DNA of 26,046 bases from the IMG/VR virus record IMGVR_UViG_3300037339_000216, positions 1 through 26,046 of that record; one strand, given 5' to 3'. Positions 20,049 to 21,988 of this stretch are shown here, piece by piece (position 1 is the first letter of the stretch; every line of letters starts with the position of its first letter). A program made the translations under genes and the position numbers. This DNA is from a virus. The notes beneath the pieces were generated by a model that saw nothing but the letters and a program-made list of their open reading frames with translations, searched no databases and was not told the origin of the DNA.

Positions 20049-20924
20049 TTACGTCAGCGAGTTCTTCACATGGAGGTGGACGATTTGCTCGTCCTCCACC
20101 CGCACCGCGCCCATCGTCAGGGCGGTGTAGATGCGCCACGCGAAGCTGATGGACGGGTCCTCGGCGACGCGCGACCAGATGTCCTTGTTCACTTGCAAGC
20201 CAATGGCCCGCTTGGTGAACGCGAGGCAGGACAGCTGACCACCGGCGGGGGCGAGCAGTCTCGTGGACATAATCCACGTGAAGCCCATCCAACCCGGCAC
20301 GATGCCGGACGAGTTGAGCCGCTGCAACGCCTCGCGGTTCACGTAGTCGGCCGAAGTCTGCTCGGTCAACTGCATGAGCTTGCGCACCTGGGTCGGCCCG
20401 ACGACCATGCACTTGGGAATCGACGGGTCGATGTCGTTCTGCATGAACTTCTCCTGGACCGCCGTCACCAGGTCGAAGCTGATGGGAACCGTTCCGTCGC
20501 TGACTACCTGGCCGACGGGAAACGTGACCGCGCCCCCGGCACCGTCCATCGCGTCGCCCGTTGCCGCGGCGATGATGATGTCGTCGACCGCCCGCTTGGC
20601 GCCCATGCCCTGCTTCTCGGCAACGGACGATTTCGGGTCAATCAACATTTGCACGATGTCTTCCGGCTCCACCGTGTCGCCGTCGTGCTTGGTCAGCGCG
20701 ACGCTGGCGCGGCGTGTCCACGGAGAGTCGGTCGCCGGCGTTGCGGTCCGGGCGGCGCTCTTGGTCGTGAAGTCGCCTTTGCCGAGGCGGTCCCAGTTGT
20801 GCTTGTTGGCAGTGATACCGCGCTCCATTACCTTGTCGCGCAGCTTGGTCTCGCTTTGTTGGGCGAGTTGGCGCACTGTCCGCTCGTAAGCTTGGACATA
20901 CGCCGCAGTGATGGTGATAGCCAT
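20049..20924 (-). CDS. Major capsid protein
   Basis: A 291-residue protein in the capsid position, right after the scaffold gene. It shows the pattern of the podovirus phage capsid family (HK97-type fold): AYVQAYERTVRQLAQQSETKLRDKV, then TKHDGDTVEPEDIVQMLIDPKSS with RRAS before it, AVDDIIIAAATGDAMDG, and near the end GLQVNKDIWSRVAEDPSISF. The main shell subunit, assembled on the scaffold and filled by the terminase. ATG 20924 has AAGGA 8 bases upstream; that site is base-paired in a predicted leader helix. The gene has its own candidate promoter and is flanked by strong hairpins, fitting the need for the most abundant virion protein. Confidence 0.9.
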   Translation of the reverse strand: MAITITAAYVQAYERTVRQLAQQSETKLRDKVMERGITANKHNWDRLGKGDFTTKSAARTATPATDSPWTRRASVALTKHDGDTVEPEDIVQMLIDPKSSVAEKQGMGAKRAVDDIIIAAATGDAMDGAGGAVTFPVGQVVSDGTVPISFDLVTAVQEKFMQNDIDPSIPKCMVVGPTQVRKLMQLTEQTSADYVNREALQRLNSSGIVPGWMGFTWIMSTRLLAPAGGQLSCLAFTKRAIGLQVNKDIWSRVAEDPSISFAWRIYTALTMGAVRVEDEQIVHLHVKNSLT

Positions 20925-20933
20925 ATGAATGGT

Positions 20934-20966
20934 CCTTGAAAAGTTGAGCCAAAAAACCCTTCAAGG
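20934..20966 (-). promoter_or_regulatory. Helix sequestering the capsid ribosome binding site
   Basis: In the transcript CCTTGAAGGG pairs with CTTTTCAAGG over 10 bp (two G-U pairs), loop TTTTTTGGCTCAA. The 3' arm contains most of the capsid Shine-Dalgarno (AAGGA). A competing small hairpin GGCA-AC-TGCC (20965-20974) uses the outer bases of the 5' arm, so the two folds are mutually exclusive, as in a translational switch. Confidence 0.55.
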
Positions 20967-21077
20967 CAGTTGCCTCTCATCTTTCAGAGAGACCGCCTCT
21001 AGCCTTTTTCCCGGCTAGGGCGCCATCCTCAGGCGGACCCCGTTTCGAGGTTGCCCGCCGATTTCGAACAGCTAACG
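20967..21077 (-). promoter_or_regulatory. Structured 5' leader of the capsid transcript
   Basis: Upstream of the RBS helix the leader folds readily: CTCTC/GAGAG with an 8-base loop (20974-20991); CTAGCC/GGCTAG, 6 bp around GGGAAAAA (20999-21018); and an enclosing CCGCC/GGCGG pair (21032-21036 with 20993-20997). No ORF is present. I could not match it to a known riboswitch or phage RNA motif by eye. Confidence 0.45.
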
Positions 21078-21083
21078 GTGCGC

Positions 21084-21112
21084 ACTGTAGCACGCGCCGA
21101 AAAACTTTGCAA
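21084..21112 (-). promoter_or_regulatory. Sigma70-like promoter for the capsid unit
   Basis: On the - strand TTGCAA (-35) and TACAGT (-10) are separated by exactly 17 bases, and TG precedes the -10 at the extended position (TGCTACAGT). Predicted start is near 21077, about 150 bases before the capsid ATG. Each hexamer matches consensus at 4 of 6 positions. The position in an otherwise unexplained intergenic gap adds support. Confidence 0.6.
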
Positions 21113-21154: not shown

Positions 21155-21988
21155 TTATGACGCGCCCGCAAGCTCCAGTAGCTCGAGGCGACGCTTGAGC
21201 AAACCCTCGTAGTCGGGGTCGCCTGCATTCATTTTGGCGATACGCGCCTCGACTTCCGTCACGCGCGCCATTGCCTCGTCCGAAGTCAGCCGCGACCCGC
21301 TGCCTTTGCCCTGCGACTGCATCTCGAACGGCTCGTCGCCTAATGCACTCATCACGCCGTAGAGCCAGCGCGTGGAGTCCGCATCCACGAGGCCTTCCTT
21401 GAAAGCGTTCTGCAACGCCTCGGGTGCCTTGTGCGTGGCGAGCAGGCGCTGGGTTTCCCCGCGGCGCGTATCGTGCGCCGCGGACCAGTCGGCTTTCAGC
21501 GCAGCATGGTCTGCCTCGAATTTCGACTTGCTCGCGAGCGTCCCCGCCTCTCGCGCCTTGGCCATGTCCGACACGACCTTCTTGAATTGCCGCGGCGTAA
21601 GGCCCGCGCGGTGCGCGACCTCCTTGAACGTCTCGGCTTCCGCCGGGTCGAACACCAGTCCCTCGGCTTTTGCATCGGGGATGACATACTCTTTTGCTTC
21701 CTTGGGTCGCCCGCTCGCCGTGTAGTAGGCGTCGTAGGCCGCGTCGTCGTCCGCTTCGCCGGGCAGCGGTATCAACCCGTGGTCCTTGCCGACCTCGAGC
21801 ATGCGCGCGCGGAACGCCTTGCGCCCGTCTTCGCCTGCTTCCTTGGACGGAAGCCGCACGGAACCGCCGAGCGCGGTCTGCGCCTCGAGGTAGGACTTCG
21901 CCAGCGCCCCTACGTCCTTCACGTCCTTCAGCGCCGGCGCGCCTTTCAAGTCGTCCGGCAATGCTGCTTTCCAGTCTGCTTCAGCCAT
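21155..21988 (-). CDS. Scaffolding protein
   Basis: A 277-residue, acidic, mostly helical protein. Its N-terminal pattern is typical of tailed-phage scaffolds: MAEADWKAALPDDLKGAPALKDVKDVGALAKSYLEAQTALGGS, then DAYYTASGRPKEAKEY. The C-terminal third has a long charged helix (SDEAMARVTEVEARIAKM ... LLKRRLELLEL). Scaffolds guide procapsid assembly and leave before packaging. Position just upstream of the capsid gene agrees. GAGG lies about 8 bases before the ATG and 2 bases separate it from the preceding gene. No protease domain is apparent. Confidence 0.88.
   Translation of the reverse strand: MAEADWKAALPDDLKGAPALKDVKDVGALAKSYLEAQTALGGSVRLPSKEAGEDGRKAFRARMLEVGKDHGLIPLPGEADDDAAYDAYYTASGRPKEAKEYVIPDAKAEGLVFDPAEAETFKEVAHRAGLTPRQFKKVVSDMAKAREAGTLASKSKFEADHAALKADWSAAHDTRRGETQRLLATHKAPEALQNAFKEGLVDADSTRWLYGVMSALGDEPFEMQSQGKGSGSRLTSDEAMARVTEVEARIAKMNAGDPDYEGLLKRRLELLELAGAS

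Follow-up and report, generated by a model that had tools for sequence, protein, structure and literature searches.

The locus examined here raises the question of whether synthesis of a phage major capsid protein is controlled by its own leader RNA, in which the ribosome-binding site would be hidden in one fold and exposed in another. The window, that is, the whole 26,046-nt stretch of viral DNA that was analysed, encodes on its minus strand a 291-residue major capsid protein (20049..20924; PF19821 Phage_capsid_2, Pfam E=2.6e-49; phrog_3437, PHROGs E=2.8e-69). Its ATG start codon (20924-20922, minus strand) is preceded at 8 nt by the Shine-Dalgarno (SD) sequence AAGGA (20933..20937, minus strand). 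The upstream gene, on the same strand, encodes 277 residues beginning MAEADWKAALPDDLK (21155..21988) and was assigned to phrog_3742 (PHROGs E=1.8e-24), with a scaffold/protease-like character.

Because the capsid leader lies on the minus strand, a fold of the plus strand of 20925-21080 concerns the wrong strand. The 156-nt leader gave a fold of -69.6 kcal/mol, compared with -49.1 ± 4.3 kcal/mol for dinucleotide shuffles (z = -4.76; 0/200). The minimum-free-energy fold contains an SD hairpin, CCUUGAAGGGUU / AACUUUUCAAGG (20934..20966, minus strand), in which CCUUGAAGGG(UU) (20966-20955) pairs with (AA)CUUUUCAAGG (20945-20934), resulting in a 12-bp helix that includes two G.U pairs and is capped by the 9-nt loop UUUUGGCUC. 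AAGG of AAGGA (20937-20933) sits within this helix, and the SD has a pairing probability of 0.81 in the full leader. The helix proposed to bury the capsid ribosome-binding site is therefore real and encloses AAGG, but spans 12 bp rather than the predicted 10. Likewise, the run of six T assigned to the loop is present, with its first two T paired and only the final four in the loop.

A fold competing with this helix had also been anticipated, in the form of a GGCA/TGCC hairpin at 20965-20974. This hairpin would require a 2-nt loop and cannot form; its bases make up the bulge and the 3' strand of another structure, a 37-nt bulged hairpin that belongs to a conserved pair and is the actual competitor. 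The capsid leader (~21077-20925, minus strand) comprises two such bulged-hairpin modules (21059-21032 and 20999-20963), followed by the SD hairpin (20966-20934). Each module consists of a helix P, a G.U wobble, a 3-nt bulge (UAG, UUG, CAA, CAG, CUA or UUA) and a helix Q. Module 1, GGCGG-(G)-[CAA]-CCUCG-AAA-CGGGG-(U)-CCGCC (21032..21059, minus strand), bears its bulge on the 5' strand and was recognised by the structural descriptor, by family covariation and by covariance model (CM) R2, which matched 21033-21058 with E=0.049. Module 2, GAGGCGG-(U)-CUCUC-UGAAAGAU-GAGAG-(G)-[CAA]-CUGCCUU (20963..20999, minus strand), bears the bulge on its 3' strand and was recognised by the descriptor; a search of the window with CM R1 left it unmatched, and its 8-nt loop and P helix are unlike the sequences behind that model. 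The 5' arm of the SD hairpin opens with the final four bases of module 2 (CCUU), and it is through its Q helix that module 2 competes with the SD helix. Given this shared strand, the SD hairpin and module 2 are mutually exclusive folds.

A sigma70-like promoter, TTGCAA-17-TACAGT (21084..21112, minus strand), places the predicted start of the leader transcript at ~21077. It was the top site 5' of module 1, with a score of 6.1 compared with 4.4 for shuffled sequence, and matches 8 of 12 consensus bases; a stricter promoter scan listed none in the window. Many relatives carry strong TTGACA-17-TATAAT or TATACT sites at the corresponding place, 17 of 38 being over the strong cut-off, and in these 17 leaders the predicted transcript start lies 3-22 nt 5' of module 1. 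The two modules of the window are separated by a linker predicted to fold into the hairpin CUAGCC-GGGAAAAA-GGCUAG (21000..21031, minus strand), a position at which many relatives, as read by eye, have a different hairpin. One large clade has a conserved linker, in which CACCUCCGGUUG leads into an ACGNA-looped hairpin, with AAGCUG 5' of module 2 (e.g. L154, L159 and L213). A weakly conserved AAGCG box was also observed across a set of 65 leaders in the stretch from module 2 to the arm of the SD hairpin, 4-8 nt past the first Q base of module 2.

Querying 50,697 phage records with the leader by blastn returned no match; therefore, members of the family are linked by structure and gene position. 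Viral contigs encoding relatives of the capsid protein were retrieved (n = 61) and their leaders were read. These leaders are dissimilar overall, yet many carry one and the same hairpin twice, with 5'-GGU-CCG-3' opposite 5'-CGG-GUA-GCC-3'. Across 51 unique leaders, an initial descriptor detected 43 modules, compared with a mean of 0.7 and a maximum of 2 in shuffled sequences, and among leaders fetched by the capsid protein alone this initial, stricter descriptor found a module in 30/51. A wider set, assembled with a profile of 15 diverse capsids and three gene-blind DNA scans, comprised 288 capsid loci with 197 unique leaders, of which 89 carry at least two modules, 62 carry one and 46 have none by descriptor. 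The resulting 151/197 leaders with any module is a biased frequency, the set having been gathered in part through the module's own letters. In 83/89 multi-module leaders, a 5'-bulge module precedes a 3'-bulge module, such that the longer strand is 5' in the first copy and 3' in the second, and in 83/89 the bulge letters are identical in both copies (mainly UAG, but also UUG, CAA and UUA). Three or more modules or module-like strands occur in tandem in L358 (reverse strand near 1087), L360 and L147.

The pairing is upheld by sequence variation, with strong covariation in both helices. Although the descriptor demands the wobble, a G-C pair at P1 and a C-G pair at Q1, positions P3, P4 and P5 of module 1 showed all six pair types and other positions several. 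In MAFFT alignments, covariation was 0.603 for module 1, compared with 0.127 ± 0.019 when shuffled (0/500), and 0.307 for module 2, compared with 0.119 ± 0.017 (0/500); because the descriptor that selected the rows demands pairing, these counts are biased towards structure. Divergent leaders (L027/L028, L037 and L012-L016) have A.C in place of the G.U wobble and the bulges CAA, GAA, CUA or UUA. As A/C in place of G/U is an isosteric wobble, the element is best read as a P helix, a G.U (or A.C) wobble, a YWR bulge and a Q helix, and a relaxed descriptor allowing the A.C wobble would enlarge the family. GNRA caps close 37/112 module 1 loops. Module 2 ends 40 ± 6 nt from the start codon, a distance that varies less than the intermodule spacing of 35 ± 12 nt.

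In a gene-blind DNA scan, 32/36 matches lay 5' of a PF19821-type capsid gene, and matches to the covariance models numbered approximately one in each phage genome and fell for the most part at the capsid gene. Both modules are present in the cultured phages VP2, K300 and ZP6; the descriptor found no module in Pelagibacter phage HTVC010P or in one Manatee Spring phage. Rfam 15 returned nothing at gathering score for the window, at E<=5 for the leader or at E<=0.5 for four relatives, and no description of such an element was found in the literature within reach of our search, which covered only a minority of the subscription journals. The capsid leader almost certainly represents a conserved RNA structure family, and this family is previously uncatalogued and widespread. 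That the approximately one locus per genome and the short inverted repeats reflect a DNA-level element, such as an operator, origin or packaging signal that merely resembles RNA structure, is scarcely credible in view of the constant G.U pair, frequent further G.U pairs, GNRA loops, mRNA-sense placement and SD hairpin, all of which point to RNA.

Phages with this kind of PF19821-type capsid look lytic, since a search for the capsid in bacterial genomes found none. Both VP2 (L370) and ZP6 (L371) are annotated with PurZ (2-aminoadenylosuccinate synthetase), and their genomes therefore probably consist of Z-containing DNA.

The competition between module 2 and the SD hairpin was evaluated across 42 non-redundant two-module leaders, 40 of them with a recognised SD. 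The pairing probability of the SD was 0.78, compared with 0.67 when the upstream part was shuffled (p = 3e-5), and its main partner was the module-2 stretch in 24/40 leaders, mostly the 3' strand where this was readable, and lay elsewhere in 16/40. In 59 leaders, the module-2 3' strand with the bases following it paired with its own SD region at -10.8 kcal/mol, compared with -7.0 kcal/mol for SD regions swapped in from other leaders, a difference for which 0/5,000 permutations were as low. Such stems are exemplified by GCUCC.GAG.GUCUGA / UCAGAC..CUC.GGAGC in L308 and by GCUCCAGG / CCUGGAGC in L197, and both sides have changed even between close relatives, as in CCUUGAA/UUCAAGG of the window versus CCGAAAAA/UUUUUCGG of L005. 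The compensatory changes that the original prediction had asked for across related leaders were thus found in the SD hairpin. The opposite pattern, in which the ribosome-binding site is kept and compensatory pairing is absent, is not that of the family, although in some leaders the SD hairpin is slight or absent. When the region 3' of module 2 was folded alone, its mean stability barely exceeded that of shuffles (z -0.3), and the signal of an SD-proximal hairpin became clear only once the 3' strand of module 2 was included. The commonest Q2 pair of module 2 is U.G, as would be expected if pairing with the GGAG of the SD were a further demand on this strand.

When module 2 was forced in silico, the median cost was 4.5 kcal/mol and mean SD accessibility rose from 0.22 to 0.36 (p = 2e-4), without the SD becoming fully open. 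In the window, the cost was ~11 kcal/mol and SD accessibility hardly changed (0.19 to 0.20), as other weak pairs took over. The free RNA is thus predicted to favour the SD hairpin over module 2. An attenuator based on an intrinsic terminator was rejected: a U-tract after module 2 is present in 3/65 leaders and lacking in 62/65, and no terminator-like site occurs in the window region.

We consider the capsid leader to be, on balance, a translational switch of capsid synthesis and a cis-regulatory RNA of a new family. A switch on the capsid gene had been suggested originally, and this idea gains from the finding that a conserved SD hairpin competes with another fold, as it should in a switch. 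In the proposed mechanism, the two modules, each with its G.U wobble and 3-nt YWR bulge, would fold close to where the capsid transcript begins; the module-2 3' strand would either close that module or pair onward with the SD region. The default state would be OFF, with the SD held in the long hairpin and capsid translation low. A candidate factor, whether a small molecule or a protein of host or phage origin, would bind both bulges and keep module 2 folded; the arm would then be withdrawn and the SD would open, giving the ON state. We infer regulation within the cell, activation upon binding and a single effector for both modules; the last is suggested by the equal bulges of paired modules. 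Because the window SD gains almost nothing when module 2 is forced, the ON/OFF direction is deduced from topology: stabilisation of module 2 by a factor would be expected to free the SD, which speaks against simple autorepression by the capsid protein.

The same leaders might instead act constitutively, with 5' hairpins that protect the mRNA and an element that enhances translation of the most abundant protein, free of any switching. GNRA-capped module 1 hairpins are indeed common (37/112) at the predicted RNA 5' end, and TTAACTT occurs near the SD in 5/38 leaders compared with 0.6 expected, reminiscent of the T7 gene 10 leader; this reading is very doubtful, as it leaves unexplained the constant wobble and bulge, the matched bulges and the conservation of pairing by which the SD is hidden. 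The T7 gene 10 leader serves a very highly expressed capsid gene behind a phage RNA polymerase promoter and carries a UUAACUUU tract upstream of the SD together with a 5' hairpin. The capsid leader shares with it the highly expressed capsid gene, the 5' hairpin and the UUAACUUU tract; in contrast, the T7 leader is not known to have bulged modules or such an SD-hiding hairpin, and the promoter here is of the sigma70 type. The T7-like UUAACUUU enhancer (5/38 versus 0.6) is regarded as a lead and not as a claim.

The proposed switch does not account for every copy of the module. Approximately 60 scan matches, at first taken as false positives, were read singly, which revealed a second setting within coding regions. 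Of the remaining matches, most lie inside genes, within the first codons, and about a dozen of the ~60 are probably due to chance. In the phrog_3742 gene before the capsid gene (L253, L264, L285, L294, L305 and L379-L389), a module-2-type hairpin starts at codon 6 or 7, and the capsid leader of these phages likewise has either both modules or just one, giving a total of up to three modules. A second set comprises phages with the portal protein phrog_156 and the major head protein phrog_1328, in which the module lies at codon 6-10 of the capsid-adjacent gene, and twice in L226. The hairpin was observed near the start of the gene adjoining a capsid gene of the other family (phrog_1328 where tested) in L226, L282, L299, L310, L320, L344, L357 and L222. 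These phages are AT-rich and have no evident SD at the module-bearing gene.

Protein-based retrieval, performed without the DNA pattern, found the module in all 11 closer relatives of the phrog_3742-type gene. In L386, L388 and L389, the length of the loop is altered and GGGUCCG and CGGGUAGCUC are unchanged. The Gly-Ser codons are fixed and different, with GGG-UCC in the first pair and GGU-AGC in the second, and in L222 the Q helix is altered on both sides, with an amino-acid change. The coding-region module thus looks to be under selection on the RNA, and it also shapes the protein sequence, through Gly-Ser pairs kept as GGG-UCC and GGU-AGC. These copies do not overlap an SD hairpin, so that one wiring does not explain every copy; as the apparent selection on RNA occurs where the SD hairpin is uninvolved, the module probably serves for recognition and can be wired in more than one way.

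As to what recognises the module, an operator for a phage protein would be one solution, in which scaffold or capsid protein, when free, would attach to the bulged modules and thereby exert P22-like feedback on scaffold and capsid translation. The modules do mark head-assembly genes, both in the capsid leader and at the 5' end of the gene preceding the capsid gene, and bulges that match in 83/89 leaders are what co-evolution with one binding protein would yield. However, the letters GGGUCCG..CGGGUAGCYC recur in phages with sequence-unrelated capsids (phrog_3437 versus phrog_1328), which would require two unrelated proteins with one specificity, and the topology of the capsid leader makes a module binder an activator; we thus regard such an operator as unlikely. 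Autoregulation by the P22 scaffolding protein is post-transcriptional and resembles the module in that phage genes are controlled at this level by RNA at the gene start. We know of no sequence that the P22 and T4 systems have in common with the module, which differs from them in being common to unrelated capsid families. T4 translational operators likewise exert post-transcriptional control through RNA at the gene start (PMC3014915).

The two hairpins might also work as a put-like antiterminator, binding host RNA polymerase at the RNA 5' end to resist pausing and termination along the late operon. They lie just past a sigma70 promoter, as does the putL RNA of HK022 just behind PL (PMC9378689), and HK022 put likewise is a two-stem phage RNA directly behind a sigma70 promoter (PMC9378689). 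However, put acts on RNA polymerase, suppressing termination through the beta' zinc-binding domain, whereas the capsid leader is wired to the SD, the two have no sequence or model match, and the HK022 putL stretch was unmatched by either covariance model or by the descriptor. Antitermination would moreover leave unexplained why the SD hairpin covaries and why the distance to the start codon is fixed, and coding-region copies are often single, all of which makes it quite improbable.

A further, tentative reading regards the module as a bipartite sensor RNA of a new class, read by one widely conserved host factor or metabolite and acquired by unrelated phage lineages. If true, the copies before the capsid gene and in the first codons of the scaffold-like gene would allow one signal to set both the timing and the ratio of head proteins. 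A close parallel in architecture is the Guanidine-II riboswitch (mini-ykkC) of host genes, in which tandem small hairpins with a conserved ACGR tetraloop precede the SD and the second is wired to it. The capsid leader shares the tandem of similar small hairpins and the wiring of the second to the SD. In contrast to the conserved ACGR tetraloop, the phage module has free loops and a conserved internal bulge, whose strand switches side between the two hairpins; it is found on head genes instead of host genes, and the Rfam models were unmatched. The translational switch favoured here would represent a familiar type of device, in a new family and at an unusual location.

Structured RNA switches have rarely been reported on the particle genes of phages. 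Among environmental virome contigs, considerably more than a hundred distinct capsid leaders contain this module, which also occurs in cultured phages of Vibrio and Alteromonas. Should the leader be read by a ligand or a host factor, that factor is probably conserved among many hosts, and the leader would show how phages time the building of their heads; an effector that is a shared host factor or metabolite would make it more than a device of a known kind.

Resemblances to cellular RNAs were also considered. Mimicry of 23S rRNA, in which ACGGUCCUAAGGUAGC resembles module strands, was rejected, as rrnB contains no model match; neither model matched E. coli rrnB or the sense strand of rplKAJL-rpoBC, and weak matches were found only elsewhere. 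The module further resembles the asymmetric loop of SRP RNA, which is again a lead and not a claim. Finally, the terminase large subunit of L310 (3489-5738) contains an inserted stretch matching an HNH endonuclease family, which is perhaps an intein.
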